A DNA stretch of 64,000 nucleotides, from NCBI RefSeq assembly GCF_012933385.1, contig NZ_JABBPN010000004.1:1-64000 (forward strand). The letters run 5' to 3'. The DNA is from Paenibacillus lemnae. GTDB taxonomy: Bacteria > Bacillota > Bacilli > Paenibacillales > Paenibacillaceae. Both the position numbers and the translations under genes were made by a program. This document shows positions 1 to 15,459 of the stretch, one piece after another (positions within the stretch are counted from its first letter, which is position 1; the number at the start of each line of letters is the position of its first letter). The notes below the pieces were generated by a model. It was not told where the DNA came from and made no database searches. It was given only the letters and a program-made list of their open reading frames with translations.

Positions 1-117
1 GAATGGTGTGTGGTAACTTCATTCTACACGAATCGTTCCCATGGGCTATTTCTTTTTAGGTGTCGCACTTCATATTACAATCTGTCTTTTTTAAAAAATG
101 CACTGATTCCAGCTAAC
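1..117. other. Partial cassette body, no gene recognised
   Basis: This AT-rich stretch ends with GCTAAC, the right boundary of a cassette body next to element E1. Its left end lies outside the window. Only very short reading frames are present on either strand and none has a convincing ribosome binding site, so I assign no function. Confidence 0.5.
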
Positions 118-258
118 GTTCAGGCATTCACGAACCCTCACTGCCTTAAGTGACCGAAGGAACGGCCACGACGCGGTTAGGCAGTGCAGGGTGTCCCTTT
201 CACCCTCACCCAGTCCAGGTCTTTCCCATATCTTCTTTCCTTGTGAACATAGAGAAAC
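118..258. repeat. attC-like element E1, right half degenerate
   Basis: The left half is typical: GTT after TAAC, the arm CATTCACG, AACCC, then a stem of ACTGCCTTAAG against GGTTAGGCAGT with one unpaired T, followed by GCAGGG. The right half is not recognisable as the usual GGCGGACC-hairpin block. A weak match (GTGAACAT at about 243-250) may be the remnant of the closing arm, but no GTTA box follows. The element is therefore probably damaged by the rearrangement that also cut the neighbouring gene. Confidence 0.55.
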
Positions 259-276
259 TCAATACTCTTTAAACCC

Positions 277-600
277 TCAATTTGGCTCTAACTTTTGAAG
301 GGTGAATTGCATCGTATATTCACCGTTACTGTCAGGCAAAGAGAATCCTATAATATCAGAACCAAGATCATAGCCCTGTTCTTTCAGTACCTCCTCACAC
401 TGAAATGAAGTGCCAACAGACCCTGGGGAAAAATAACCAGCTTTATCATCAATAAAGCTGATGCCCCCAAGTTCTTGCGAAGATGGATAAACACAGTTAA
501 TTGATGAGTCACTATTTCCCTTTGTAACACTAAGTTCAACAAGATATGTTTCATCATCGAGTATTGAGATACTGCCTTTAATATCAGCTTCCTCGAACAC
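277..600 (-). pseudogene. 5'-truncated cassette gene, unknown function
   Basis: This is an open frame of 107 codons beginning at a GTG with no ribosome binding site in front of it, ending in a normal TGA. The frame is closed four codons upstream of the GTG. The sequence immediately upstream (601-672) is the right half of an attC-like element, closely matching the loop and stem of E4, while the left half of that element and the expected cassette end are missing. The simplest reading is a deletion at about base 600 that removed the gene's start, the end of its cassette body and half an element. The protein is acidic with two cysteines and resembles nothing I recognise. It may be expressed only by accident. 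Confidence 0.5.
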
Positions 601-672
601 TGAATTCCCTCACCGAATACACTTCTGACTCCTGTCGGACCGAGGGTGTATTCACAATGCGTGAACATATTG
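601..672. repeat. attC-like element E2, right half only
   Basis: The sequence matches the right half of E4: the TTCCCTCA and CGAATAC blocks, the CGGACCGAGG stem side, and the closing arm GCGTGAACATATTGTT that ends at the G of the GTT core. The left half is missing, so this is a recombination or deletion scar rather than a working site. Confidence 0.7.
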
Positions 673-716
673 TTAGATGAAGTGTATGGCCTTTTCGAGC
701 AACAACCAATTGTCCT

Positions 717-1373
717 TTAAATATTAATTCCCAATAGCCCTCTAAATTCAATTGCTGATACTCCTTCAGGATTTATTCCGCTTTGTGCTGATTCAACAAA
801 CGGCAACCACTGCGAGTCTTCAGGCCCAACAAAGCCAATCCTTGACCAATTGTTAAGGAAATCAATAAAGTTGTTTCCTATTATATATCCATGTCCTTCA
901 CCATCATTATGACTTAAATATACAATTGGGAAATCTCTGTCTTCACTTAAGTCAAAAGCAAGATAATCACCATTACCTACTTCCATAAACGCTAGTTTGT
1001 TGTGCCATACTTTGTCATATTCGTCTTCAGGATTAGGAAAAATTTGCTCTACACATCCTCTTCTTCCCTCTTCAACATCTGATAAAAGGTGAAGACTCCA
1101 ATAAGGTATTCCACTAAAGATTTCTCGGTACTTATATGGAAGTTCAAACTCTTCAGGAAAAAACCATCGAAAACTAAAGTCACCTGAAAAATTAAGTAAT
1201 ACTTGCTTAAAACTCTCTGGCAAAGTAGTACCTAATTGATGTTCTACAGATTTTATTTCGTCTTCTGTTGCAGGAGCCCCGATTTCTATTTCTTGAACTT
1301 CTCCACCAATCTCAACAATTCGATTCGCAATTATATTAATTCGTTCTTTGATAGTTTCAAATGAATTTGTCAT
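717..1373 (-). CDS. SUKH (SMI1/KNR4) domain protein, probable immunity protein
   Basis: A 218-aa protein whose central part has the SUKH pattern: an ATEDEIKSVEHQLG helix, then LPESFKQVLLNFSGD, and a later block with WHNKLAFMEVGNGDYLAFDL, VYLSHNDGEGH and a C-terminal helix FIDFLNNWSRIG. SUKH proteins commonly neutralise nuclease or other polymorphic toxins, and many also occur as orphan cassette genes. No toxin is visible next to it. The ATG is preceded by AAGGAAG at suitable spacing. It is the only gene of its cassette (body 673-1427), whose ends are complementary (GTTAGATGAAG and ATTTCATCTAAC). The immunity role is inferred from the family and the partner toxin is unknown. Confidence 0.75.
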   Translation of the reverse strand: MTNSFETIKERINIIANRIVEIGGEVQEIEIGAPATEDEIKSVEHQLGTTLPESFKQVLLNFSGDFSFRWFFPEEFELPYKYREIFSGIPYWSLHLLSDVEEGRRGCVEQIFPNPEDEYDKVWHNKLAFMEVGNGDYLAFDLSEDRDFPIVYLSHNDGEGHGYIIGNNFIDFLNNWSRIGFVGPEDSQWLPFVESAQSGINPEGVSAIEFRGLLGINI

Positions 1374-1427
1374 TTAATCTTCCTTCTTTGTGGTTTTATA
1401 AACAGAATTTCAGGTATTTCATCTAAC

Positions 1428-1579
1428 GTCCCCGCATTCACGAACCCTCACCGACTTAAGCCCCGAAGGGGCGTCCGCAATGCGGTTAGGCAGTGCAGGG
1501 TTGTCGCCTGATTCTTCTTCGCTGAAATCCCTCTTGGCGACCAAGGGGCAGCTCGCTGTACCGCAGAGTGAACATATTG
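1428..1579. repeat. attC-like element E3
   Basis: An intact element between ATCTAAC and GTT. It shows the ATTCACG/GTGAAC arm, CACCGACTTAAG opposite GGTTAGGCAGTG, an internal CCCCGAAGGGG hairpin, the TCGCC...GGCGA helper stem and the closing ATATTGTT. The IS110 element at 1582 is inserted immediately after its GTT. Confidence 0.75.
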
Positions 1580-1581
1580 TT

Positions 1582-1816
1582 GGTATTCTCAGTTCATACC
1601 CGACTGGTTCGGGGATGAACTTTTTCTTTATACTGGAGGAAACGCTGGGCCCAATAACGTATGTTTTGTTGGGACACAGATCCCGCCACATAAAGTGTTA
1701 TATGCCCTCGCCTTTTGTTCATACCCCGATTCAGCTGGTTGGGCCATGAGCCCGCATCACCGTGCCAACCTGTGGAGAACAAAAGTGCCGGCTCCAGTGA
1801 AATTCAAGGAGGTTAT
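1582..1816 (+). ncRNA. Candidate bridge RNA region of the IS110 element
   Basis: This non-coding leader between the left end of the IS and the transposase start is of the length expected for the bridge RNA of IS110-group elements. Inverted repeats such as AGTTCATACCCGA with TCGGGGATGAAC are visible. The assignment rests on position and family knowledge; I have not derived target- or donor-binding loops. Confidence 0.5.
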
Positions 1817-3025
1817 ATGAATCAACCTATTCTAAGTATTGACGTTGCTAAAGGAAAAAGTGTTGCTGCTGCTTTTCTTTCCTATCAAGTTTGTATGTAT
1901 AAACCGTTTCCATTTTACCATTCAGAAGAAGATCTTCAACGGCTCCTAGCTATTCTGGAGGAATTGAAGTCCGTCTCCGGTCAAGTACCAAAGGTGGTTC
2001 TCGAAGCCACTGGGAATTATTCAAAACCTCTTGCCTCTTTCTTTTCTTTCCATGGTTATTCGGTCATTCTTCTCAATCCGTTGTTAACTCACCAACTGAA
2101 ACAAAAGGCTGTACGTAAAGTGAAAACCGATCCCATTGATGCGATGCGTATTGCCCAAGTTTTTTACTTACAAGATCCTCAGCCTCAAGTACAGTTGAAC
2201 GAGACCGTTCATCAACTCCGGGTTATCTGCCGGCAATATCAGCATTGGACGGCCTTATACGGTGAGATGCAGCTTCATTTCCGTGCGGTTCTCGACCTGC
2301 TTTTTCCGGGTTACGATAAAGCTTTTCAAAAGGTCTGTAACCGTACTTCTTTGGAGTTGTTATCTCGTTTCCCTACTCCTGCCGAGCTTCTCGCTGCAGA
2401 TCCTGAAGAAGTGTTAAAACTCCTGCTGAGCAATCGCCGGGGCCAAGCTTGGAACGAAAAAAAGCTGCAGCAGCTGCTCGAAATCGCAAGACACAGCCTG
2501 CCAGATCTTCATGGTATCGAAGCTCAAAAGGTGGTCCTTAGACAGTATATTCACCTTCTTAGAACGTACCAGGATTGTATGAGTGACCTTTTTCAGTCTA
2601 TGCAAACCCACGCCGAATCAATGGAAACCTACCATCTTCTTCGTACAATTCCCGGCGTAGGGCCTTTAACAGCGGCCATGCTCATTGCTGAAATCGGAGA
2701 CATAAAAAGGTTCCCTTCCGTGAAGCAGCTAACAGCTTTTGCAGGGCTAGACTCAGCTGTTCACGAATCGGGAACCTTCAAATCCAAGAAGAATCGAATA
2801 TCGAAACGAGGCTCTTCGTACCTTCGAACCGCTCTGTATCAGGCTACCGTAGCAGCCATTTCCAAGCAGATTCATGGCCCTAGAAATTCGACTCTCTTTC
2901 AATTCTATCAGCAAAAACGAGACGAAGGCAAACCGGCAAAAGTCGCAATTGTTGCTGCTTCCCATAAGCTTTTACGCATTATATTTGGCATGTGGAACTC
3001 AGGATCGGCATTCCAAGCTCAATAA
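1817..3025 (+). CDS. IS110-family transposase (DEDD and Ser recombinase)
   Basis: A 402-aa transposase. The N-terminal RuvC-like DEDD domain shows LSIDVAKG (first D), VVLEATGNY (E) and KTDPIDAMRIAQ (two D), followed by a coiled helical linker. The C-terminal transposase_20 domain shows IPGVGPLTAAMLIAEIGD and KRGSSYLR, the latter with the serine nucleophile region. The ATG at 1817 is preceded by AAGGAGG at good spacing; the open frame extends further upstream but through the presumed bridge-RNA region. Family members catalyse RNA-guided, target-site-specific insertion without target duplication. The interrupted site here is the GTT core of a cassette element, so it probably targets that class of site. 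Confidence 0.93.
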   Translation: MNQPILSIDVAKGKSVAAAFLSYQVCMYKPFPFYHSEEDLQRLLAILEELKSVSGQVPKVVLEATGNYSKPLASFFSFHGYSVILLNPLLTHQLKQKAVRKVKTDPIDAMRIAQVFYLQDPQPQVQLNETVHQLRVICRQYQHWTALYGEMQLHFRAVLDLLFPGYDKAFQKVCNRTSLELLSRFPTPAELLAADPEEVLKLLLSNRRGQAWNEKKLQQLLEIARHSLPDLHGIEAQKVVLRQYIHLLRTYQDCMSDLFQSMQTHAESMETYHLLRTIPGVGPLTAAMLIAEIGDIKRFPSVKQLTAFAGLDSAVHESGTFKSKKNRISKRGSSYLRTALYQATVAAISKQIHGPRNSTLFQFYQQKRDEGKPAKVAIVAASHKLLRIIFGMWNSGSAFQAQ

Positions 3026-3188
3026 TGCGTTAAATTGGATTATAATTCCAGTTATATCTGCTCTTAAGGGTAGGTTTATTTAAGTATGTAGAATTGTGGG
3101 ATAACAAAAATTATTTTATCGAAGACTTGACTTTGATTAGCTGGTTTATATGATGGTGACGACTTCTCGAATTACTTACAAAATGCTC

Positions 3189-3647
3189 TTAATAGTACTT
3201 CACTAATTCTTTATCGATTTCATCTATGTATCCAATTTCTTCAATTCCATTCCAAAATATAATCTTGCTTGCTTCTTCATTCAATTCAAATGGTTTCTCC
3301 TCTCCTATATCTGCACTGAAGAGGCCCCCATACTCAATCTTTCCAGACCTTAATGTAAATTTCATCAATCCCTTGAAATCAATTCTTTCAGGAGATTGAT
3401 TTGTTTCTTCAAGCATCTCCCTAATTGCACATTCTCTTAAAGTTTCCCCTGGCTCGAGTAGGCCTCCGGGTACCTCCCAATTGTTCTTCCAGCTATTGAA
3501 CAAAAGTAAGAATCCTACTTTGTTCCTTGCAACGACCAGTGCATGTGTAATGGGGTATTCCAAGCTAATTTGTTCTACTTCCTCTTCAGTGATATTTAAC
3601 AGTTCTTCGAAAACATCACCCTTCTGATTTATACAAATAGGCATCAT
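3189..3647 (-). CDS. Nudix hydrolase (cassette gene)
   Basis: A 152-aa protein with a near-complete Nudix box, GGLLEPGETLRECAIREMLEETN, here from about residue 64 (G-x5-E-x7-R-E-x2-E-E; the final glycine position is Asn). Nudix enzymes hydrolyse nucleoside diphosphates linked to another group. The substrate cannot be read from sequence. The ATG ATG at 3642-3647 follows GGGGGAG at 5-7 bases, so I start at 3647 rather than at the upstream TTG. It is alone in its cassette (body 3146-3689). Its own element, E3, is separated from it by the IS110 insertion. Confidence 0.85.
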   Translation of the reverse strand: MMPICINQKGDVFEELLNITEEEVEQISLEYPITHALVVARNKVGFLLLFNSWKNNWEVPGGLLEPGETLRECAIREMLEETNQSPERIDFKGLMKFTLRSGKIEYGGLFSADIGEEKPFELNEEASKIIFWNGIEEIGYIDEIDKELVKYY

Positions 3648-3689
3648 TGATCTCCCCCACAAAATCGAATTTCGTCACTTTCCTCTAAC

Positions 3690-3868
3690 GTTATTGTATT
3701 CACGACGTCCCACCGACTTAAGGCACCGTCAGGTGCCGGCCGCGATGCGGTTAGTCGGTGCGGATGTGTCCGCTGAGTATGCTTCCCTGAATCCTGAGTT
3801 CCCTCAAACGAATACTCTTCACTTCCGGCGGACCGAGGGGGCTTGTCCCCCGATGCGTGAACATATTG
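3690..3868. repeat. attC-like element E4
   Basis: An intact long copy between CTCTAAC and GTTATATG. Stems visible are ATTCACG/CGTGAA, CCGACTTAAG opposite TTAGTCGG (unpaired T), GGCACC/GGTGCC, CCGCGATGCGG, GTCCGC/GCGGAC with a long loop, and GGGGGCTTGTCCCCC. Confidence 0.8.
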
Positions 3869-3900
3869 TTATATGATGCCACTGCCTTCTTGAGATACTT

Positions 3901-3988
3901 ACACTTTATCAATTGATCTTAGTCGTTTTTTTAATTGTTCTATTGCTCTTGATATTTGAAGTTTATTCTTAGATTCCTTCATCCACGT
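3901..3988. repeat. 88-bp direct duplication, copy 1
   Basis: Identical to 4078-4165. It encodes, on the minus strand, the last codons of the zinc-ribbon cassette gene, ending in RLRSIDKV and an immediate TAA. Copy 1 therefore probably preserves the original 3' end of the gene, while copy 2 is joined to different downstream sequence. Confidence 0.85.
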
Positions 3989-4059
3989 AGTGGTGCTGAC
4001 AAGTGCCTCTTTATTTTTGCATCTACTTGAGCATTTTTACGCTGCGATTCTCGGCATTC

Positions 4060-4524
4060 TTAGTATGCAATAAACAACACTTTATCAATTGATCTTAGTC
4101 GTTTTTTTAATTGTTCTATTGCTCTTGATATTTGAAGTTTATTCTTAGATTCCTTCATCCACGTTGGTAGTCGACTAGCTACACTCTGATTTATATTAGG
4201 TTTTCTACTTCTTATCTTTGAAGTAATATATCCTTCTAAGTATTCTAAATGTTCTTTATTAAATGCCCATAATTCTTCTCCGCAACAAGGAATTCTTAGC
4301 CAAAGTTTGTGATTATAACAAATCCCTTCATTTTTTCCCCATGATGCGACAACATTACCCATACTTTTTATATCATTGAGATAGCCACAATTGTTACAAC
4401 AAATGATAAAGTTATTCTGTTTTAATATAATGCACCTCTGACAATCTGGACATTCAATTAGTTTGTCGTAGTTCTCAAAGAAACTATAAATTGATTCTCC
4501 AGTATCATTGAATCGACTATTCAT
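4060..4524 (-). CDS. Zinc-ribbon protein of unknown function (cassette gene)
   Basis: A 154-aa protein starting at the ATG that follows AAGGAG at ten bases; the frame is open further up, into the element, but without a ribosome binding site. CPDC at about residue 25 and CCNNCG about 16 residues later form a TFIIB-like zinc ribbon, and a second pair (GICYNHK...IPCCGEE) may bind metal. The C-terminus is a basic amphipathic helix. The last 88 bp of coding sequence are duplicated downstream, and the present gene ends with five extra residues (LFIAY) compared with the stop found in the other copy. Its cassette ends pair over 19 positions (GTTATATGATGCCACTGCC with GGCAGTGGTTTCATATAAC). No function can be assigned. 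Confidence 0.7.
   Translation of the reverse strand: MNSRFNDTGESIYSFFENYDKLIECPDCQRCIILKQNNFIICCNNCGYLNDIKSMGNVVASWGKNEGICYNHKLWLRIPCCGEELWAFNKEHLEYLEGYITSKIRSRKPNINQSVASRLPTWMKESKNKLQISRAIEQLKKRLRSIDKVLFIAY
4078..4165. repeat. 88-bp direct duplication, copy 2
   Basis: Identical to 3901-3988 and lying within the 3' end of the zinc-ribbon gene. The 89 bases between the copies are unrelated, so this looks like a partial cassette duplication or fusion with another cassette's tail. Confidence 0.85.
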
Positions 4525-4565
4525 GGATTTATAACTCCTTCGGTTTGGCAGTGGTTTCATATAAC

Positions 4566-4736
4566 GTTCAGGCATTCACGAACCCGAGAGGCTTAAGCTG
4601 CCTCGGCGATCAAACGAAGTGATCGCCACGCCGGGTCGAAGACTTAGCCTCGCAGGTGTTGTCCGCTGAATCCGCTTCCCCGAAATGCCTCCAGCGGACC
4701 GAGGGAGCGACAGCGACCGACGCGTGAATGTTGCTG
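4566..4736. repeat. attC-like element E5
   Basis: Intact copy between ATATAAC and GTTAGATG. The second arm is perfectly paired as CATTCACG/CGTGAATG, different bases from E10 and E14 at the same place. GAGGCTTAAG faces CTTAGCCTC with the unpaired T, the terminal hairpin is GGCGATCA...TGATCGCC, and the helper stem is GTCCGC/GCGGAC. Confidence 0.8.
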
Positions 4737-4767
4737 TTAGATGAAGTCCATATCCTCTTCGAGCCAC

Positions 4768-5199
4768 TCACATAATTTCTTGAATCTGTTTCATATGGTG
4801 TTCATCATGATGTACAAATATCTTTGTGTATGAATCAATAGAATATGTTCTCTTACCCTTACCTATTGTGAATCGCAGCTCAGGATTTAAATTCATTAGA
4901 GCTTTCACTAACTCAAGTCTTGTGTCTCTAAAATCTTGCTTTAATGAATCAGCATTTACATATTCTGCTGCTTTCTTCACAGCAATTTGATTATGTTTAT
5001 CATGGTCAACCCACTCGGGCAGCCTAGCTCCGTCCTCCATCAACGGCACCATAACGTCTAAGCTGTACCTATCCCAATTAGTAAGGTGGGAAATCACATC
5101 CCTTACACTCCAAGCACCAATTGACTTGTCAAGTATTTCATCATTTATCAAATTCACATTCTCTATAAAGTCCTCAAATCTCTTTAATACCTTAGACAT
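4768..5199 (-). CDS. DinB/DfsB-like four-helix protein (cassette gene)
   Basis: A 143-aa protein of the DinB/ClbS-DfsB superfamily, four-helix bundles that often bind a divalent metal through three histidines and act in thiol-dependent transfer or detoxification. Signature regions are GAWSVRDVISHLTNWDRY near residue 30 and the C-terminal HHDEHHMKQIQ histidine cluster. The start ATG is preceded by GAGGTGATT; the open frame runs ten codons further upstream without a ribosome binding site. It is the sole gene in its cassette (body 4737-5243), whose ends match as GTTAGATGAAGTCCAT and ATGGATTTCGTCTAAC. Substrate unknown. Confidence 0.75.
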   Translation of the reverse strand: MSKVLKRFEDFIENVNLINDEILDKSIGAWSVRDVISHLTNWDRYSLDVMVPLMEDGARLPEWVDHDKHNQIAVKKAAEYVNADSLKQDFRDTRLELVKALMNLNPELRFTIGKGKRTYSIDSYTKIFVHHDEHHMKQIQEIM

Positions 5200-5243
5200 C
5201 TTGGAATCACCTCGTCGAATTAATTTCATGGATTTCGTCTAAC

Positions 5244-5415
5244 GTTAATGTGTTCCAGACGTCGAAAGGCTTAAGCTGCTTTAGTCTATATGCGAAGCAT
5301 AGATTAGTGCCGGGTGGCTCTGCCACTTAGCCTTGCAGATGTGTTCGCCTGTCTTCCTTCTTTGAAATCCCTCGGGCGGACCGAGCGACGCATGTCGCGA
5401 TGCTGGAAAACGGTG
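5244..5415. repeat. attC-like element E6
   Basis: Intact copy, nearly identical to E15. The arm is TTCCAG/CTGGAA instead of the usual ATTCACG/CGTGAAT, so both sides have changed together. AAAGGCTTAAG faces TTAGCCTT, TCTATATGCGAAGCATAGA forms a hairpin and GTGGCTCTGCCAC another. Confidence 0.8.
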
Positions 5416-5843
5416 TTATCTGCTGGATCTGCCCCACTTCTTCGAATGAAGACAGGACGTCGACCCACAGCATTAAACATCTTTTAACCATTTCTTTACT
5501 GAATCTTGCCATGCAGGCTTCCTTGATCCACTTACTCATCGGGTATTGATTTGCTGAATCTTGCCATGCAGGCTTCCTTGATCCACTTTCTCATCGGGTA
5601 TTGATTTACTGAATCTTGCCACGCTGGCATCTTTGATCCACTTTCTCATCGGGTATTGATTTGCTGAATCTTGCCATACTGGCTTCCTTGATTTACTTAC
5701 TCATCGGGTATTGATTTGCTGAATCTTGCCATGCTGGCTTCTTGATTCACTTTCTCAAACCAGCATCTCCCTACTTCAAGCAACAGGACGTTGCGGACGT
5801 ATAACCTTCAAAAAGTCTCTTTGGGGCAGATCTTGCAGATAAC
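5416..5843 (-). other. ORF-poor cassette with five 55-bp tandem repeats
   Basis: The body starts TTATCTGCTGGATCTGCCCC and ends GGGGCAGATCTTGCAGATAAC, a strong terminal inverted repeat. Inside are five copies of a 55-bp unit (GAATC at 5501, 5556, 5611, 5666 and 5721). On the minus strand each unit contains AAGGAAG, then ATGGCAAGATTCAG, and an overlapping frame beginning ATGAGTAAG or ATGAGAAAG, so chains of very short peptides (MSKWIKEA, MARFSKSIPDE) could be translated. It is paralogous to the cassette beside the recombinase (10287-10709). Function unknown. Confidence 0.7.
5501..5775 (-). repeat. Five 55-bp tandem repeats
   Basis: The period is exactly 55 bp for all five copies, with scattered substitutions; the last copy is truncated. 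Because 55 is not a multiple of three, each unit shifts frame, yet the same short frame restarts in every unit behind an AAGGAAG motif. Confidence 0.85.
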
Positions 5844-5946
5844 GTTCCTGTATTCATGAACCCCAAAGGGGTTGTCTGCTGAAATCCCTCTTCGAAATCC
5901 ACCTCGCAGACCAAGGCTCCAAAGGAGACGCTGCTTGAATATTATG
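5844..5946. repeat. attC-like element E7, minimal form
   Basis: At 103 bp this is the shortest intact element. The branched left arm is reduced to a simple hairpin AACCCCAAAGGGGTT, while the helper stem GTCTGC...GCAGAC and the closing arm are kept (ATTCATG opposite CTTGAAT). It shows which parts of the fold are dispensable. Confidence 0.75.
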
Positions 5947-6102
5947 TTATGTGATGTCTCTCCTACTTCCTTGCAAATCGCCTTTATCTTTATGTATCCC
6001 AGGCTGCTGGCCGTTTTTCATTCCTCGAAGGAATTTTCCCCAGACGTCGCTGCCCCTCATACCATTATTTAACCCTTCCTTGCTGGAGAGATTTCACATA
6101 AC
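5947..6102 (-). other. Short ORF-poor cassette, copy a
   Basis: One of three homologous bodies (also 6845-6999 and 8999-9153). Its ends pair (TTATGTGATGTCTCTCC with GGAGAGATTTCACATAAC) and it holds an internal palindrome ATTCCTCGAAGGAAT. On the minus strand a frame opening at ATGAGGGGC, in phase with a later ATG conserved in the other copies, ends RRDIT at the TAA of the boundary TAAC. Expression is unproven. Confidence 0.6.
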
Positions 6103-6255
6103 GTTCTCGCATTTACGAACCCGAAAGGCTTAAGGCGCGAATGCGCCGGGTGGCTCCGCCACTTAGCCTTGCAGGGTTGTTCGCCTGAGTACACCCTCAG
6201 CTTCATCCTCATCTGGCGAACCAAGGGACGTATGTCCCGCTGCGAAAATGTATTG
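6103..6255. repeat. attC-like element E8
   Basis: Intact copy of the commonest type (also E11, E12, E13). Stems are AACCC/GGGTT, AAGGCTTAAG opposite TTAGCCTT, GGCGCGAATGCGCC, GTGGCTCCGCCAC, TTCGCC/GGCGAA and GGGACGTATGTCCC. The second arm (CATTTACG/CGAAAATG) has one mismatch. Confidence 0.85.
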
Positions 6256-6718
6256 TTATCCGATGCATCTGACCCCTTGAGTTACCTTCTCAATCGATCT
6301 GCTGAATGTTGCCACGCTAGCTGCTTCGAAATACCTTCTCAACCGATCTGCTGAATGTTGCCATGCTAACTGCTTCGAAATACCTTCTCAACCAATCTGC
6401 TGAATGTTGCCATGCTAACTGCTTCGAATTACTTACTCAACCAATCTGCTGAATGTTGCCATGCTAACTGCTTCGAATTACTTTCTCAACCAATCTGCTG
6501 AATGTTGCCATGCTAACTGCTTCGAATTACTTTCTCAACCAATCTGCTCAATGTTGCCATGCTAACTGCTTCGAATTGCTTTTTCAACCAATCTGCTGAA
6601 TGTTGCCATGCTAACTGCTTCGAATTGCTTTTTCAACCAATCTGCTGAATGTTGCAGTATTACCTGTTTCGAGCCCTTTGTAGATTGTTTTCTATTGTCT
6701 TCAGATGTTTCGGATAAC
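6256..6718 (-). other. ORF-poor cassette with eight 49-bp tandem repeats
   Basis: The body ends are TTATCCGATGCATCTGA and TCAGATGTTTCGGATAAC, a near-perfect inverted repeat. Eight units of 49 bp occupy most of the body. On the minus strand each unit holds ATG GCA ACA TTC AGC, fifteen codons and TAG, then one base before the next ATG. The last unit's frame runs on and ends at the TAA of the boundary. No clear ribosome binding site precedes the units. Confidence 0.7.
6293..6680 (-). repeat. Eight 49-bp tandem repeats
   Basis: The GAATG (or CAATG) anchor recurs at 6304, 6353, 6402, 6451, 6500, 6549, 6598 and 6647, exactly 49 bp apart. Encoded minus-strand micropeptides read MATFSRLVEK followed by VIRSS, VFRSS or AIRSS, so differences between copies are mostly synonymous or conservative. 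The unit shares its start with the 55-bp repeats elsewhere in the array (MARFSK). Confidence 0.8.
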
Positions 6719-6844
6719 GTTCTCGCATTTACGAACCCGAAAGGCTTAAGGCGCGAATGCGCCGGGTGGCTCCGCCACTTAGCCTTGCAGGGTTGTTCGC
6801 CATGGCGAACCGAGGGACGCATGTCCTGAAGCGAAAATGTAATG
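6719..6844. repeat. attC-like element E9, short-loop form
   Basis: Like E8, but the long variable loop of the helper stem is deleted, leaving a perfect palindrome GTTCGCCATGGCGAAC. This shows that the loop is dispensable and that the stem itself is what is conserved. Confidence 0.8.
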
Positions 6845-6999
6845 TTATGTGATGTCTCTCCTACTTCTTCGCAAATCGCTTTTATCTTTAAGTATCTTAG
6901 GGTGCTGGCTATGTCTCATTCCTTGAAGGAATCCTTACCAGACGTCGCTGCCCCTCAACCCTTATTTAACCCTTCCTTGCTGGAGAGATTTCACATAAC
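6845..6999 (-). other. Short ORF-poor cassette, copy b
   Basis: Homologue of 5947-6102 and 8999-9153. It contains the palindrome ATTCCTTGAAGGAAT and paired ends (TTATGTGATGTCTCTCC and GGAGAGATTTCACATAAC). A 24-codon minus-strand frame starting MRHSQHPKIL ends at the TAA of the boundary. An AAGGA lies twelve bases before the ATG, not a strong ribosome binding site. Confidence 0.6.
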
Positions 7000-7151
7000 G
7001 TTCTTGTATCTACGAACCCGAGAGGCTTAAGGGAGCGCACGCGACCGGGTCCGACGGACTTAGCCTCGCAGGGTTGTGAGCTGAATCCGCTTCTCTGCCT
7101 ACTTCTTCTTGCGAGCCAAGGGCCGTACGGCCCACAGCGTAGATACTGTGT
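7000..7151. repeat. attC-like element E10
   Basis: Intact copy with a perfectly paired, distinctive arm GTATCTACG/CGTAGATAC, good evidence of compensatory change. GAGGCTTAAG faces CTTAGCCTC, GGGTCCGACGGAC contains a hairpin, GGGCCGTACGGCCC is the distal hairpin and the helper stem is TTGTGAGC/GCGAGCCAA. Confidence 0.85.
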
Positions 7152-7187
7152 TATATGATGCTAGTGACTTCTTTGACTCATCCTACA

Positions 7188-7646
7188 TTAGGTTCTTAAT
7201 ATAGATCTTATATCATTCTTTAAGTCTTCAATTAGAGGCTTCTGTACAGTACTTATATCTTCAATATTAATTTCTTCAATCGATTTAAACTCCAACTGTA
7301 ATGATTCTTGTTCTTTATCTGTATATCTAAGTGTTTTATTGTCTTCAGCGATTTTTCCTGCTATAGCTGCTTTTGCATTGAATATAAACATTACAAATAC
7401 AACTTCATTTCCATCAGGATACCTATATTTCATCCGTGAACCACTGTATACAGCATAGAGTTCATAATCTGTGACCACTAAACCTGTTTCCTCATGAACC
7501 TCTCGAACCATTGTCTCTTCAATCGACTCACCTGCATTCATTCCACCACCAGGTAATCCCCAGTCACCATAGTCAGATCTTCGCTGTAGTAATATCCTAC
7601 CCTGATCGTCTCGAATGATTGCGCCACCAGTTACTAGTATTCTCAT
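7188..7646 (-). CDS. Nudix hydrolase (cassette gene)
   Basis: A 152-aa Nudix protein with the full box beginning GGGMNAGESIEETM and continuing REVHEETGL near residues 33-55, preceded by an N-terminal strand MRILVTGGAIIRDDQGRILL typical of MutT/ADP-sugar-type members. ATG follows GAGGTTACTCAAG. It is clearly distinct from the other two Nudix genes of the array, so these are separate acquisitions and not tandem duplicates. The cassette body (7152-7697) has ends GTTATATGATGCTAG and CTAGTTTCATATAAC. Substrate not predictable. Confidence 0.87.
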   Translation of the reverse strand: MRILVTGGAIIRDDQGRILLQRRSDYGDWGLPGGGMNAGESIEETMVREVHEETGLVVTDYELYAVYSGSRMKYRYPDGNEVVFVMFIFNAKAAIAGKIAEDNKTLRYTDKEQESLQLEFKSIEEINIEDISTVQKPLIEDLKNDIRSILRT

Positions 7647-7697
7647 CTTGAGTAACCTCTCTTGCTATTTTTGTTTAATACGCTAGTTTCATATAAC

Positions 7698-7850
7698 GTT
7701 CTCGCATTTACGAACCCGAAAGGCTTAAGGCGCGAATGCGCCGGGTGGCTTCGCCACTTAGCCTTGCAGGGTTGTTCGCCTGAATATCCCCACGGCTTCA
7801 TCCTCATCTGGCGAACCAAGGGACGCATGTCCCGAAGCGAAAATGTAATG
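7698..7850. repeat. attC-like element E11
   Basis: Intact copy of the common type. It has the same stems as E8, with TTCGCC...GGCGAA enclosing a loop of about 28 bases and GGGACGCATGTCCC as distal hairpin. Confidence 0.85.
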
Positions 7851-7880
7851 TTATCAGAAGTTCATGCCATCTTGGGGATT

Positions 7881-8318
7881 CTAAAATATCTCCCCTAAAT
7901 AAGATGTTTTTATATATTTCCCTTTACTATAATAATCGATAAGGCTTCTAACCCCTATCGGAAATAATGGTTCATTTATTACATTTTCTATTTCTATCCA
8001 TTTAATTCCTATTTGATTTTTATCCATAATTCTACTACCGTTAACATAAGCTTCCTTCACAATCCCGTTAAAAATAAATTCTACTCTATGAATATCACTA
8101 TCCAAAAAGCATTCTCTTATATACAGCAATTCTTTTACTTCAATTTCATATCCAGTTTCCTCCATACATTCTCTGACCAAACATTTCTTAAGCATCTCAC
8201 CTGGCTCTTGACCTCCACCAGGTAATAAATAAAACTCTTCCTCTTTATCCTTCACTATTGTAACAAGCAATTTATTATTATGTATAATTACAGCTTTAGC
8301 TGAGTTTCTTATCTTCAT
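7881..8318 (-). CDS. Nudix hydrolase (cassette gene)
   Basis: A 145-aa Nudix protein with box GGGQEPGEMLKKCLV then RECMEETGYE around residues 34-56. The start ATG follows AAGGTGATT at good spacing. The C-terminal tail (SKGKYIKTSYLGEIF) is similar in style to small Firmicutes Nudix proteins of unknown substrate. It occupies cassette body 7851-8371 alone, with ends GTTATCAGAAG and TTTCTGATAAC. The coding sequence is AT-rich, unlike the flanking elements. Confidence 0.87.
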   Translation of the reverse strand: MKIRNSAKAVIIHNNKLLVTIVKDKEEEFYLLPGGGQEPGEMLKKCLVRECMEETGYEIEVKELLYIRECFLDSDIHRVEFIFNGIVKEAYVNGSRIMDKNQIGIKWIEIENVINEPLFPIGVRSLIDYYSKGKYIKTSYLGEIF

Positions 8319-8371
8319 CGAAAATCACCTTCGGTGTAGTTTATTAATTCTTTGCAAGAATTTCTGATAAC

Positions 8372-8524
8372 GTTCCTGCATTTACGAACCCGAAAGGCTT
8401 AAGGCGCGGATGCGCCGGGTGGCTCCGCCACTTAGCCTTGCAGGGTTGTTCGCCTGAGTCCACCCTCGGCTTCATCCTCATCTGGCGAACCAAGGGACGC
8501 ATGTCCCGCTGCGAAAATGTATTG
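8372..8524. repeat. attC-like element E12
   Basis: Intact copy of the common type, with GGCGCGGATGCGCC in place of GGCGCGAATGCGCC and the usual GTGGC/GCCAC, TTCGCC/GGCGAA and GGGAC/GTCCC stems. Confidence 0.85.
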
Positions 8525-8846
8525 TTAACTGATGTCAATGACCTCTTCGATTTGCTTCCACCCGGACATCACTGCTCTGCAATCAAATTCGCTCTTTAAC
8601 CACACTTCACTGTTCATGCTTTCTAAACCCGCTCTTCAACCCAGCTTCACTGTTGATAATATTTAGACCGCTCTTCAATCCACTTCGCTGTTCATGCGTT
8701 CTAAATCGCTTTCATTTCTTATGTAATCATACTTATCGTACATTATTATTCGCACTTTCGCACTTCAAAACGCTCCACTGACATGACCATCTTAACAAAG
8801 ACTATCATAATTCTCTTTCAATACAATCCCATTGATTTCAGTTAAC
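8525..8846 (-). other. ORF-poor cassette with diverged repeats
   Basis: The ends pair almost perfectly (GTTAACTGATGTCAATG and CATTGATTTCAGTTAAC). The right-hand part has no feature I recognise. The left part holds about three diverged units of roughly 40-45 bp (CGCTCTT...CACTGTTCATGC). On the minus strand a 30-codon frame, MNSEVWLKSEF and onward, ends at the TAA of the boundary TAAC; no ribosome binding site is evident. Function unknown. Confidence 0.6.
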
Positions 8847-8998
8847 GTTCTCGCATTTACGAACCCGAAAGGCTTAAGGCGCGAATGCGCCGGGTGGCTC
8901 CGCCACTTAGCCTTGCAGGGTTGTTCGCCTGAACCCACCCGCGGCTTTACCTCTTCTGGCGAACCAAGGGACGTATGTCCCGCTGCGAAAATGTAATG
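8847..8998. repeat. attC-like element E13
   Basis: Intact copy of the common type, almost identical to E8 over its first half; the helper-stem loop differs (CTGAACCCACCCGCGG). Confidence 0.85.
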
Positions 8999-9153
8999 TT
9001 ATATGATGTCTCTCCTACTTCTTCGCAAATCGCTTTTATCTTTAAGTATCCCAGGGTGCTGGCTGTGTCTCATTCCTTGAAGGAATCCTCACCAGACGTC
9101 GCTGCCCCTTAACCCTTATTTAACCCTTCCTTGCTGGAGAGATTTCATATAAC
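8999..9153 (-). other. Short ORF-poor cassette, copy c
   Basis: Third homologue of the 155-bp cassette (see 5947 and 6845). Relative to copy b the changes in the 24-codon minus-strand frame are few (CAT/CAC silent, K to G, T to I), and the frame again ends at the boundary TAA. The three copies sit behind different elements, so they moved as cassettes and not by simple tandem duplication. Confidence 0.6.
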
Positions 9154-9326
9154 GTTTATGTATTCCCGAACCCGAGAACCTTAAGGCACAAAGTGCCGGC
9201 CGCGACGCGGTTAGGTTCGCAGGGTTGTCCGCCAATGCTTCCACGATTCCTGAATCGGCTCCGTAGTGAATCCACTTCGCTCTCGGCGGACCAAGGGGAC
9301 GAAGTCCCTGCAGCGGGAATACGCTG
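9154..9326. repeat. attC-like element E14
   Basis: Intact long copy with a perfectly paired arm GTATTCCCG/CGGGAATAC. AACCTTAAG faces TTAGGTT (unpaired T), with GGCACAAAGTGCC, CCGCGACGCGG, GTCCGCC/GGCGGAC and GGGGACGAAGTCCC hairpins. With E10 it gives the clearest covariation evidence. Confidence 0.87.
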
Positions 9327-9359
9327 TTATGTGATTGAACGCTCTTCTTGGAAATACAT

Positions 9360-10073
9360 TCACCCTGGAATTGAAAACGGCATGACTATAACATTATCAA
9401 CAAAAAACAATCCGTTTTTTTCAATAATACTAACTTTCCATTCTTGTATATAAAACAATTCATTATCTTGCTTCTCGTCAAGCCCGCTAGAAGGCCGATT
9501 CATCCTAAATACCCGTACGAGATACTCGTCATCTTTACTCGATTTGCTAACTGAAGCAATATGATGAATCGCGTTATGTTCCTGCAATCTAATTGTTTGG
9601 TTTCCTACTGTACTTTCTTGTTTTTCCTCAAAAATAATAAGATTTTCAGCTTCTCCAGTAGTCCAGGGTTTTATTGAGTTGAGATCATAATTTAAATCAA
9701 ACAATCTCATAACAAAAGCGTAAGCAAGAAAATCAGGATAAGACTGAACGTCTTCACTCTTAATTGATTCCGTAAGCCACTCATTCTTGTTTCCATCAAA
9801 TATGCGCTTTCTATATTCTTTTTTCACATCATCAATACGGAAAAGAGGAACAAAGTACTTTGTAGAATCCGGACCTAACTCCTCTATCGTTTTTATTTCA
9901 CTTTGGGGTTCTCCTTTAAATGCACCTTGCAGATTAAAAAACATTGTCATTGGAACAGTTTCATTCTCTAAATCTACTTTGGCTTCACTAGGCGAATTAT
10001 TAGTGGAGTTATTACACGCATTTAGCAAGAAACTAAGTAAAATTAAAAACCCAGCTATTTTATATAACTTCAT
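9360..10073 (-). CDS. Lipoprotein of unknown function (cassette gene)
   Basis: A 237-aa protein with a classical lipoprotein signal peptide: MKLYK, a hydrophobic stretch, then the lipobox LLNAC with Cys20 and a Ser/Asn-rich linker. The mature part is soluble, rich in charged residues, and ends in a strand-rich segment (LFYIQEWKVSIIEKNGLFFVDNV). I do not recognise the family. The ATG follows GGGAG at six bases. It is the only gene of cassette body 9327-10114, whose ends match as GTTATGTGATTGAACGC and GCGTTCTTTCACATAAC. Membrane anchoring on the outer face is inferred from the lipobox. Confidence 0.75.
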   Translation of the reverse strand: MKLYKIAGFLILLSFLLNACNNSTNNSPSEAKVDLENETVPMTMFFNLQGAFKGEPQSEIKTIEELGPDSTKYFVPLFRIDDVKKEYRKRIFDGNKNEWLTESIKSEDVQSYPDFLAYAFVMRLFDLNYDLNSIKPWTTGEAENLIIFEEKQESTVGNQTIRLQEHNAIHHIASVSKSSKDDEYLVRVFRMNRPSSGLDEKQDNELFYIQEWKVSIIEKNGLFFVDNVIVMPFSIPG

Positions 10074-10114
10074 GGTCCACTCCCGCTTTTATTTTTTGCG
10101 TTCTTTCACATAAC

Positions 10115-10286
10115 GTTAATGTATTCCAGACGTCGAAAGGCTTAAGCTGCTTTACTCTAAATGCGAAGCATAGAGTAGTGCCGGGTGGCTCTGCCACTTA
10201 GCCTTGCAGATGTGTCCGCCTGTCTTCCCTCTTTGAAATTCCTCGGGCGGACCGAGCGACGCATGTCGCGATGCTGGAAAACGGTG
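10115..10286. repeat. attC-like element E15, nearest the recombinase
   Basis: Intact copy, nearly identical to E6: TTCCAG/CTGGAA arm, AAAGGCTTAAG opposite TTAGCCTT, GTGGCTCTGCCAC, TCCGCC/GGCGGA and GCGACGCATGTCGC. It follows the first cassette of the array when read from the recombinase. Confidence 0.85.
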
Positions 10287-10709
10287 TTATCTGCTGGATC
10301 TGCCCCACTTCTTCGAATGAAGACAGGATGTCGACCCACAGCCTTAAAATATCTTTCAACCATTTCCTTAATGAATCTTGCCACGCTAGCTTCCTTGATT
10401 CACTCACTCATCGGGTATTGATTTGCTGAATCTTGCCACGCTGGCTTCCTTGATCCACTTACTCATCGGGTATTGATTTGCTGAATCTTGCCATGCTGGC
10501 TTCCTTTATCCACTTACTCATCGGGTATTACTTTGCTGAATCTTGCCATGCTGCCTTCTTGATCCACTTACCCATCGGGTATTACTTTGCTGAATCTTGC
10601 CATGCTGGCTTCCTTGATTCACTTTCCAGAGTCTTTCTACTTCAAGCAACAGGACGTTGCGGACGTATAACCTTCAAATAGTCACTTTGGGGCAGATCTT
10701 GTAGATAAC
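10287..10709 (-). other. First cassette: ORF-poor, five 55-bp tandem repeats
   Basis: Paralogue of 5416-5843: both ends are nearly identical (GTTATCTGCTGGATCTGCCCC; GGGGCAGATCTTGTAGATAAC), both contain five copies of the 55-bp unit, and both carry the same conserved segment before the right end (GCAACAGGACGTTGCGGACG). Copies are anchored by GAATC at 10373, 10428, 10483, 10538 and 10592. Being first in the array it lies between the recombinase and all other cassettes, so it could act as a leader or carry a promoter. That is speculation. Confidence 0.65.
10373..10646 (-). repeat. Five 55-bp tandem repeats
   Basis: Same unit as at 5501-5775. The last interval is 54 rather than 55 bp. On the minus strand each unit carries AAGGAAG followed by ATGGCAAGATTCAG, or AAAGGAAG in one copy. 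Confidence 0.8.
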
Positions 10710-10853
10710 GTCTTATTTGCGTATTGCGTGAATAACTCCATATTACGCATGTTTCGGTATTTCGTAAATACCGCAGCGACACGAAGTTACATGAACCGCC
10801 CGTGCCCCTCAACTCACATCTGCCGCCAAGCACCTCCTTTCACTCGCCCCTCC
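10710..10853. other. Candidate attI-like region beside the recombinase
   Basis: Read on the minus strand, the array begins ...AAGACG|TTATCTAC here, preserving the ACGTTAT seen at every element-cassette junction, but no full element follows. Instead there is an imperfect inverted repeat with a 6-bp spacer (TGCGTGAATA at 10725-10734, ACTCCA, TATTACGCA at 10741-10749), a layout like the two arms of a tyrosine-recombinase core site. A perfect hairpin CGGTATTT...AAATACCG follows at about 10755-10773. The insertion-site role is inferred from position. Confidence 0.5.
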
Positions 10854-12044
10854 TCAAAAATCCAATGGACTCTTGATACGCCGTGCGTCTTTTACGGTCA
10901 CATGAGTATAGCGCTCTGTGGTGCGGCTGCTGGCATGACCGAGGAGCTCCTGGATGTAGCGAAGATCGGTTCCTGCTTCCAGCAGGTGGGTGGCGAAGGA
11001 ATGCCTTAGTACATGAATGCTCACTTGTTTGCGGATAGAAGAGCGGGCTAGCGCTTGCTCGAATATTTTCTGAGCAGAGCGTTCACGCAGGTGGCTGCCT
11101 GGGGATTGCCCGGGGAATAACCATGTTCCTGTTTTGTACTTGACCATGTACTCTTCCAATAGCGGGAACACAGACTCCGCAAGTATGGTGAAGCGGTCTT
11201 TCCTTCCCTTTCCCTGCCTCACTTTTAAAATCCGTCGCTCGGTATCGATATCTGACGGTTTTAAACGCACAACCTCACCCACACGTAATCCCGCTGAATA
11301 TGTGAGATACAAAATTAGCCGGTGCTTCACATTCTCTGTCTGCTGCAAAATTTCTTTAACCTCAGCTAAGGATAAAACATCAGGCAGCTTTTTCTCTCGC
11401 TTAGGGCGGACATACCCGCCCGAAACGTTCTCATGTTTGATATACCGCGCATAAAACTTCAAGGCACTGATACACTGGTTGATATAGGCGTGGGAACAGC
11501 CTTGCTGCAGCAGCATAAGTGAATAGGATGAAAAAGATAACATTTTCTCTGCAACAACAGGACGGTCTGAAACCGAAGAATTGGTTTTATTACGATGCTC
11601 TTCTATGTACTGACTGTATCTGCGAACATGGCCGATATATGCTTTCACGGTCTTGAGGCTGTACCCGCGCAGAATTAACTGCTTCTTTAATTTGTCCAGA
11701 TCCCTGGCATCTGCTGTTAAAAGCTTCTTCTCGTACTCTCCCTCTTGTCTCCAAACCGTTTCCGCACCTGCATTCCCTACATTCTCTCCAAGCCTTTCAT
11801 TCCTCTGCTGAAATATACCGCCTGCCATGACCAACATGTCATCCACCCAAACGTCATCTTCTGCAAAAAACTGAAACAATTGCGAAATCGATCGCGCCCT
11901 GTTCGGTATGGTCCACACTCTGCTTTCAGAATGATAACGGCGTCCATCTATACGCTTAATGGCTTCCACCGTGTCGTAAGAAAAAACCGGCATTCTGATT
12001 TCCAATCGGTAAGGATCGCCTTGAGCCAATACAATCTCAATCAT
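10854..12044 (-). CDS. Tyrosine recombinase with HARP-like N-terminal domain; putative cassette integrase
   Basis: A 396-aa tyrosine recombinase. Residues about 4-60 resemble the HARP domain of SMARCAL1 (a pattern of hydrophobics, then IKRIDGRRYH and RVWTIP), a DNA-structure-binding fold. Residues 105-205 are the SAM-like core-binding domain, and residues 220-390 the catalytic domain with Arg254 (AGLRVGE), Lys279 (GKGRKDR), His344/Arg347 (HVLRHSFATH), His370 (LLGHAS) and Tyr379 (ERYTHV). The extra patch that marks IntI integrases before HxxR is absent. The C-terminus is KSPLDF. ATG follows GAGGTGAT at seven bases. It is co-directional with the cassettes and ends 144 bp from the first one. Action on the array is inferred from location and domain content. 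Confidence 0.85.
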   Translation of the reverse strand: MIEIVLAQGDPYRLEIRMPVFSYDTVEAIKRIDGRRYHSESRVWTIPNRARSISQLFQFFAEDDVWVDDMLVMAGGIFQQRNERLGENVGNAGAETVWRQEGEYEKKLLTADARDLDKLKKQLILRGYSLKTVKAYIGHVRRYSQYIEEHRNKTNSSVSDRPVVAEKMLSFSSYSLMLLQQGCSHAYINQCISALKFYARYIKHENVSGGYVRPKREKKLPDVLSLAEVKEILQQTENVKHRLILYLTYSAGLRVGEVVRLKPSDIDTERRILKVRQGKGRKDRFTILAESVFPLLEEYMVKYKTGTWLFPGQSPGSHLRERSAQKIFEQALARSSIRKQVSIHVLRHSFATHLLEAGTDLRYIQELLGHASSRTTERYTHVTVKDARRIKSPLDF

Positions 12045-15208: not shown

Positions 15209-15459
15209 TAAAACGATGAATGAAAAGTGAAAATTAACAGCTCTGCTTCTCGTATCAGCCTCAGTCTTTCCATTGCTCGGCCGCACGCTCTTTTTCGCAG
15301 TACCATCTATGAAAAAACCACTGCAAAACTTGCAATCCACTCAACTGTCCAGAAATGACTTCAAGCTGTCCAAAGTTATGAACTTCTTCCATTTTGTCCA
15401 TACTACTTCTACACCGTTTGTCCGGATGTCCGGAACACTGTATTTAGGAGGAGATTCAT
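15209..15459. other. Intergenic stretch between nrdJ promoter and helicase gene
   Basis: Mixed sequence with no credible reading frame or RNA motif. The last bases carry TTTAGGAGGAGATTCAT, the ribosome binding site of the helicase gene, so the helicase promoter must lie here, but I cannot fix its hexamers. Confidence 0.4.

Follow-up and report, generated by a model that had tools for sequence, protein, structure and literature searches.

A gene-cassette array in Paenibacillus lemnae with a probable integron-like mode of exchange and a recombinase without the IntI insert

This study concerns a cassette array in Paenibacillus lemnae and the tyrosine recombinase encoded at its end, both found in the first 64 kb of contig C44 (64,000 nucleotides (nt), the whole of which we call the window). 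Sequence comparisons make it very probable that this is a chromosomal gene-cassette array which, like those of integrons, is built and reshuffled through site-specific recombination, here by a predicted recombinase that lacks the IntI-defining insert. Integrons are the classic gene-capture platform; most descriptions come from Pseudomonadota, IntI is their defining feature, and their attC sites follow the consensus RYYYAAC (R'') and GTTRRRY (R'). Since the system in the window works like an integron yet fails the IntI and attC-consensus tests, we file it as a new variant of the cassette-exchange systems. An earlier sequence-only reading of the window had taken the system for a separate integron-like lineage, set apart by a recombinase other than IntI and by a branched recombination site. 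This proposal is supported here, with the recombinase's own role being what we infer. A literature search turned up no description of such a system (preprints and most subscription papers lay outside its reach).

Cassette ends and natural exchange

Read along the minus strand, the recombinase gene (12047-10854) is followed by a spacer with an attI-like site ending in GTTA (10709-10706) and then by cassettes that run to the contig end (position 1), each consisting of a body and one element on its 3' side. A covariance model (R1), built from 57 elements of which two come from the window (elements 3 and 6), finds 14 element copies between 114 and 10289, all on the minus strand, at expect values (E) of 1.2e-29 to 7.1e-7. 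The earlier count of 15 had included a TAACGT junction at 10706, which is the attI-like site and not an element. The junctions, said to be always TAAC/GTTA, are mostly so; element 13 (1424-1582) ends in GTTG because an insertion sequence of the IS110 family begins there. Single-gene and gene-free bodies do alternate with the elements as described: seven of the 14 hold one minus-strand gene (one of these also holds the IS110 on the plus strand), and seven hold no nameable gene, their small frames being outside the family scan. The named content amounts to three NUDIX genes, one SUKH-1 gene, one DinB-like gene, and two frames without a Pfam match.

Matches to the recombinase at E <= 1e-30 were present in 19 of 60 genomes, the window's own included, and gave a first set of 19 sources (the first 16 kb of the window and the array side of 18 other recombinase genomes). 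Repeats were evident by self-comparison in most loci with enough DNA. All 145 matches of an nhmmer profile in these sources lie on the recombinase strand, and 128 of them, from 13 sources, could be trimmed at TAAC and GTTA. A second set of 20 newly fetched loci (about 2.5-2.9 kb 5' of the gene and mostly about 16 kb 3' of it) placed 181 of 181 matches on the recombinase strand; 128 elements from 19 of these loci could be trimmed, and every one of them stands 3' of the gene.

In an integron, the two ends of a cassette join in the circle to form its single recombination site, whereas in the array an element and its right neighbour derive from different cassettes. Complementarity of the bases outside TAAC/GTTA is therefore expected within the cassette and not across the element. 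In the first set, 80 of 108 cassettes have all three flanking bases complementary to their own end, and the figure for pairing across the element is 11 of 108 (shuffling within loci, 5000 times, gave a mean of 17 and a maximum of 31); the window alone gives 10/11 versus 0/11. The second set replicated this with 62/89 versus 5/89, bringing the pooled figures to 142/197 and 16/197. The match extends over 14 nt, with 80-95% at eleven positions and 63% at the last, and then drops to background; the sixth and seventh positions of this outer arm match in just 36% and 3% (commonest letters GAAA versus C(A/T)TC). We read this own-end complementarity as the mark that a self-closing unit would leave. 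Genes were also described as one-way with the element on their 3' side, and the longest frame is indeed on the recombinase strand in 158 of 198 bodies, on the opposite strand in 14, and shorter than 75 amino acids (aa) in 26. A family scan that covered 102 of the 157 same-strand cassette proteins of up to 400 aa returned NUDIX (6), GNAT (4), methyltransferase (3), and many single families, and defence-like models match some of these proteins. A cassette present twice in locus L028 holds a BsrG-like type I toxin-antitoxin RNA (10659-10915 and 15276-15533, minus strand), slightly below the Rfam gathering score.

The attI-like site, where cassette 1 of the window starts, has counterparts that are likewise not elements in eleven other loci, 77-244 nt past the recombinase stop. 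Before GTTA, most of these sites have an ending like GTTCGTAAATAAGAC (a consensus drawn by eye), and in the eleven loci at least 10 of the 14 positions in the flank after the attI GTTA are complementary to the own end of the first cassette. In L031 a cut element stands in place of the attI-like site. Within the second set, 19 of 20 loci show, by reading, a similar sequence at the chosen GTTA (the exception is L125); L138, L139, and L143 show weak or unscorable complementarity to the first element detected.

Natural exchange can be read from ten close pairs among the second-set loci (best recombinase piece at least 90% identical). In all ten, an alignment of 91-96% identity crosses the recombinase and attI and ends 0, 0, 0, 1, 8, 8, 8, 9, 13, and 17 nt past GTTA, and the first cassettes show no match between partners (none over 150 nt). 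Divergence between these relatives thus begins no more than 17 nt past the attI GTTA, and they do not carry the same cassettes in the same order. For the pair L126/L131 the alignment reaches the final base of GTTA in both loci and stops there, and the flanks are 96.1% and 96.8% identical around unlike cassettes; the far-flank identity (96.8%) resumes 9 nt before the last detected L131 element, and in between the elements alone match. L126 and L132 share a whole second cassette at 98.9%, and L142/L143 and L136/L137 have parts of single cassettes in common, away from attI. In L028, a 471-bp body occurs twice at 99% identity together with its own element (97-100%) amid unlike neighbours, and cassettes 1 and 10 of the window are duplicated in the same manner, with edges at elements. 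Bodies are also common to different genomes (L030/L039, 735 nt at 94%; L030/L031, 475 nt at 79%).

The folded element and its recombinase

The elements have a median length of 153 nt (range 95-198; n = 256), and 69 of the 256 measure 100-120 nt. Covariation was counted in an alignment (A1) of long forms alone, namely 57 of the 71 elements that measure 145-165 nt (the remainder, near-copies plus two others, were left out), so the counts say nothing of short forms. A1 holds 16 consensus pairs in four helices, with 15 of the pairs changed on both sides. Standard pairs fill 93.6% of 906 cells (75.9% in shuffles), double-change cells number 162 (44 in shuffles), and shifting the partners by one to three columns cuts pairing to 20-44%. 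By our sum of the pair table, G-U accounts for just 14 of the roughly 848 paired cells, and we therefore read the element as DNA; RNA helices usually hold more G-U pairs. Folded as single-stranded DNA, two elements beat their shuffles (z -2.9 to -3.0), one of them on both strands, with an outer stem of GTATTCACG with CGTGAATAC, a hairpin, an arm GGTCTGC/GCAGAC, and a further branch that forks. The covarying helices support the branched, folded element first proposed. In natural short elements of L033 (109-113 nt), the forked branch looks like one plain hairpin. RYYYAAC is met in 49 of the 256 elements, GTTRRRY in 50, and both in 11; the AAC/GTT core is present, but trimming relied on it.

A complete tyrosine recombinase does stand at the array end, as claimed (397 aa; PF00589, 4.6e-42). 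It consists of an N-terminal domain of about 75 aa (weakly HARP/DRD-like), a SAM-like core-binding domain, and a Phage_integrase catalytic domain, with no IntI insert; PF13495 matches at 0.0002, below its cut-off. The best-scoring profile is NF040815 (XerA-type 'site-specific tyrosine recombinase/integron integrase') with 196.3 versus a cut-off of 220, TIGR02249 gives 187.6 bits versus 265, and the scores for XerC (177.6 versus 335) and XerD (168.5 versus 330) are below both curated thresholds. In an alignment of 29 recombinases, R255, K280, H345, R348, and H371 are invariant and Y380 nearly so; we take these six to be the catalytic residues. The lysine-to-histidine (K-to-H) spacing is 66 in the window recombinase and 65-67 in measurable array recombinases versus 107 in five IntI rows. 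In a quick tree of 69 rows, whose backbone lacks resolution, the ten rows labelled IntI form a clade with a Shimodaira-Hasegawa-like approximate likelihood ratio (SH-aLRT) of 100 and the window family falls outside it; rows were dropped by hand as short or redundant, and the IntI labels are ours, five of the ten being without a measured spacing. (L079 is labelled there as a 3'-side array although its repeats are 5'; no claim depends on the label.) Spacing, TIGR02249 score, and tree thus agree with the earlier view that the recombinase is not IntI. Its closest solved relative by sequence is IntI4 (2a3v), which also comes first by Foldseek E-value (predicted TM-score of the model 0.49, low TM-scores throughout). 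Among the best 120 of 7850 proteins in a protein search, relatives of about 380 aa occur in Paenibacillus, Saccharibacillus, Gorillibacterium, and Cohnella. A LexA-like box was found in 1 of 30 regions upstream of the recombinases. The closest tree neighbours outside the order are L046 (a metagenome-assembled genome of Undinarchaeales) and L045 (Firmicutes UBA5388), and both loci end within about 1 kb past the gene, where an array would begin.

We strongly infer that the recombinase catalyses cassette exchange via circles and folded strands. Cassettes would leave and enter as circles, and the element would be recognised as folded single-stranded DNA, in which TAAC/GTTA and the 14-nt outer arms may form one recombinase-binding arm and the outer stem the other. 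Strand exchange would fall within GTTA, new cassettes would join at attI beside the recombinase, and the N-terminal domain may help hold the branched site.

Relatives, known systems, and rival explanations

Among 296 genomes sampled from the order Paenibacillales, the element (E <= 1e-6) is present in 200 and the recombinase (E <= 1e-60) in 102; both occur in 101, the element only in 99, the recombinase only in one, and neither in 95. Recombinase homologues are thus accompanied by the element in 101 of 102 genomes, and the sole recombinase-only genome (G045) has four TAG in frame. The 99 element genomes without recombinase may hold orphan arrays or decayed recombinases. Across a phylum sample of 299 genomes, R1 matched two, the window's own and one of its family; among 80 named loci it matched Paenibacillus sp. 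NFR01 (L044), with one weak match in L077. These named loci were 80 of a larger number found by an alignment query, and a single-sequence scan of genome contigs gave none. Plasmids and phages returned no match at 60% identity or above, the best-covering match (37.5%) being on a Chryseobacterium plasmid. The window's nrdJ-side locus is shared: in L032 a NrdJ (81% over 626 aa) also adjoins the recombinase remnant of genome G010, and no cassette body matched between the two loci at E <= 1e-10.

With integrons the system shares one-gene, one-way cassettes, an AAC/GTT core, chromosomal arrays, an attI adjoining the recombinase gene at which the first cassette joins, and a cassette start complementary to its own cassette end. 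It differs in its insert-less recombinase outside the IntI clade, in an array that is 3' of the gene and co-directed with it, in the length of an element that is branched in its long form, in 14-nt outer arms with a mostly mismatched position pair, and in the scarcity of LexA-like boxes. In a classical array next to a presumed IntI (L120), the three readable cassettes match over 6-7 bases past GTT and fall to chance level after that. With XerA-type (NF040815), XerC, and XerD recombinases, the window recombinase has the catalytic domain and its best-scoring profile in common, whereas it scores below the cut-offs, has an extra N-terminal domain, and is array-associated.

In PMC9668308 and PMC8138268, an IntI-specific additional domain near patch III is called defining or essential, and the latter describes it as not fully conserved in an integron-like subgroup. 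The OTH-22-1 motif, which PMC8632094 presents as probably a new form of attC-like motif in single-stranded DNA, is similar in that respect; compared by description only, it has RYYYAAC at its 5' end and occurs in several phyla and archaea, and the passage on it names no recombinase. A Firmicutes survey found one complete integron (Limnochorda pilosa) and a few clusters of attC sites lacking integron integrases (CALINs) (PMC9024848), and PMC8618304 lists Firmicutes and Bacteroidota among integron-bearing phyla. These CALINs and the Limnochorda integron are likewise cassette arrays in Bacillota, few in the phylum as surveyed, whereas the element described here occurs in 200 of the 296 genomes sampled from a single order.

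These likenesses invite the idea of a true integron, whose recombinase would be an IntI that lost its insert and whose elements would be large attC sites. IntI4 is the nearest solved relative by sequence and Foldseek E-value (with the low model scores given above), the AAC/GTT core, attI, and one-way cassettes are held in common, the classical array L120 also shows own-end complementarity, and PMC8138268 describes the insert as incompletely conserved in its integron-like subgroup. We nevertheless find this rather unlikely in view of the K-to-H spacing, the IntI clade that excludes the window family (under an unresolved backbone), the position of the array 3' of the gene, outer arms reaching 14 nt past GTTA versus 6-7 matching nt past GTT in the three L120 cassettes, and the joint presence of both consensus motifs in just 11 of 256 elements.

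It is extremely improbable that the elements are dispersed structured repeats (like miniature inverted-repeat transposable elements or repetitive extragenic palindromes) spread by transposition next to an unrelated recombinase: all matches run in one direction and, in fetched DNA, lie 3' of the recombinase, the complementarity is a property of the cassette and not of the element, and species differences begin at or just past the attI GTTA, even if copies are numerous, one holds an IS110, and elements occur in 99 of 194 genomes without recombinase. RNA structures at gene 3' ends (terminators, attenuators, or antitoxin-like RNAs), between which cassettes move by homologous recombination, would account for covarying helices, for elements that come after genes, and for repeated bodies that share their element only in part. 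The few G-U cells would fit DNA better, no Rfam match was found to the window element (gathering scores) or in L026, L028, and L031 (E <= 0.01), and the breakpoints fall at attI, which is no element; we regard the RNA explanation as very improbable.

Several observations also weigh against cassette exchange of the integron-like kind that we favour. Its support is sequence-based and includes no circular cassette; RNA helices would show equal covariation, and further pair types in A1 number 31 against 28.8 in shuffles, 69 of 500 shuffles being as high. Full three-base complementarity is absent in 28/108 and 27/89 cassettes of the two sets. Six of the 19 first-set sources have no element (L037, L040, L042, and L043 end less than about 0.6 kb from the gene, L036 has a recombinase with in-frame stops, and the L038 protein is in another clade), and in the second set L139 gave none in its 2.1 kb. 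Elements persist in 99 of the 194 genomes without recombinase (E <= 1e-60), and in 25 of the 200 genomes with elements there is just one match (our count; at most ten candidates were scored per genome). A pair of L031 bodies is 99% alike but its elements diverge after the first part, and the window's short bodies 3, 7, and 9 also have partly unlike elements; since the likeness reaches just part of the element, other recombination or conversion also acts.

Arrays of a similar kind appear elsewhere. At least three repeat segments are found in 13 of the 80 named loci, and eight of these are Bacteroidota (L050, L053, L058, L060, L063, L070, L079, and L085), with the repeats 3' of a related recombinase in all but L079. 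Three Bacteroidota recombinases could be measured and have a K-to-H spacing of 65. The own-end match holds in 18/22 cases versus 1/22 for the adjacent end (at least 5 of 6 bases; L050, L058, L060, L063, and L070), as counted with regular-expression anchors set after seeing a first run (L053 gave no element with its expression). That first run, with automatic anchors, gave a clear own-end signal in L058 alone and a poor one in L053, L060, L063, and L050, because the left anchor was wrongly picked. Counted from GTT, the never-matching position in the Bacteroidota falls where the worst-matching one does in Paenibacillales. In a contig of HGW-Firmicutes-8 (L082, 228-4693), repeats with ends GCCTGTTGTTAGGCGATG stand 5' of a related recombinase, which may be yet another arrangement.

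With modest confidence, we lean toward a second integron class, distinct from the IntI class and spanning Bacillota and Bacteroidota, in which insert-less tyrosine recombinases (with a branch-binding N-terminal domain in Paenibacillales) would exchange cassettes via folded sites with long mismatched arms, and which would be the main cassette-exchange platform of Paenibacillales (element in about two-thirds and recombinase in about one-third of sampled species). Detection starting from IntI would miss the window-type system. The element is in 200, and the element with recombinase in 101, of 296 genomes of an order of the Bacillota, a group where integrons were reported rare. The system raises the question whether cassette recombination requires the IntI insert in the first place. 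It also offers an independent look at the way a folded site may be recognised, and its cassettes make up a pool of genes to explore (NUDIX, acetyltransferases, methyltransferases, defence-like genes, and a toxin-antitoxin RNA).

The array in the window, feature by feature

Table 1. Recombinase, attI-like site, and cassettes of the window in minus-strand order (E values of elements from model R1)
Feature	Position	Strand	Support or remark
Tyrosine recombinase, 397 aa	10854..12047	-	PF00589 4.6e-42
attI-like site ending ...CGCAAATAAGAC|GTTA	10706..10771	-	145 nt 3' of recombinase stop; outer limit our choice
Cassette 1 body, no named gene, 55-nt tandem repeats	10290..10705	-	copy of cassette 10
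Element 1 (attC-like site of cassette 1)	10111..10289	-	E 2.4e-19
Cassette 2 body, 237-aa frame 9360-10073	9330..10110	-	no Pfam match
Element 2	9150..9329	-	E 5.3e-21
Cassette 3 body, no named gene	9002..9149	-	recurs as cassettes 7 and 9
Element 3	8843..9001	-	E 5.3e-24 (in model seed); single-stranded DNA fold z -2.97
Cassette 4 body, no named gene	8528..8842	-	
Element 4	8368..8527	-	E 2.0e-23
Cassette 5 body, NUDIX gene 7881-8318	7854..8367	-	PF00293 4.2e-11
Element 5	7694..7853	-	E 2.7e-23
Cassette 6 body, NUDIX gene 7188-7646	7154..7693	-	PF00293 1.3e-20
Element 6	6996..7153	-	E 1.2e-29 (in model seed)
Cassette 7 body, no named gene	6848..6995	-	
Element 7	6715..6847	-	E 1.8e-20
Cassette 8 body, no named gene, 49-nt tandem repeats	6259..6714	-	
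Element 8	6099..6258	-	E 2.0e-23
Cassette 9 body, no named gene	5950..6098	-	
Element 9, short form (110 nt)	5840..5949	-	E 8.0e-15
Cassette 10 body, no named gene	5419..5839	-	90% identical to cassette 1, neighbours unlike
Element 10	5240..5418	-	E 7.7e-19
Cassette 11 body, DinB-like gene 4768-5229	4740..5239	-	PF12867 5.1e-08
Element 11	4562..4739	-	E 7.0e-22
Cassette 12 body, frame 4060-4575	3872..4561	-	no Pfam match
Element 12	3686..3871	-	E 3.6e-19
Cassette 13 body, NUDIX gene 3189-3644 and inserted IS110	1583..3685	-	
Element 13, outer end cut by IS110	1424..1582	-	E 1.5e-20
Cassette 14 body, SUKH-1 gene 717-1373	676..1423	-	PF09346 5e-18
Element 14	114..675	-	match 114-296, E 7.1e-7; right half read by eye

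As the window starts the contig and the cassettes run to position 1, the assembly breaks inside the array. The genome as a whole has 34 element matches at E <= 0.01, of which 20 lie beyond the window on contigs C31, C16, C30, C13, C48, and C25 (the last a weak match, E 0.004). The IS110-family element (1583-3145; transposase frame 1715-3025, plus strand) sits at the GTT of element 13, the presumed crossover, and may possibly aim at the recombination site. The halves of element 14 are split by about 370 bp with a 107-aa minus-strand frame (277-600), which looks like the entry of a gene into the folded site's loop. Cassette 12 has an exact 88-bp duplication within its body (3901-3988 and 4077-4164). 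Finally, the 55-nt and 49-nt tandem units in unnamed bodies look related (GCTGAAT, then TTGCCA) and are found at 5420-5796, 10292-10613, and 6230-6719.

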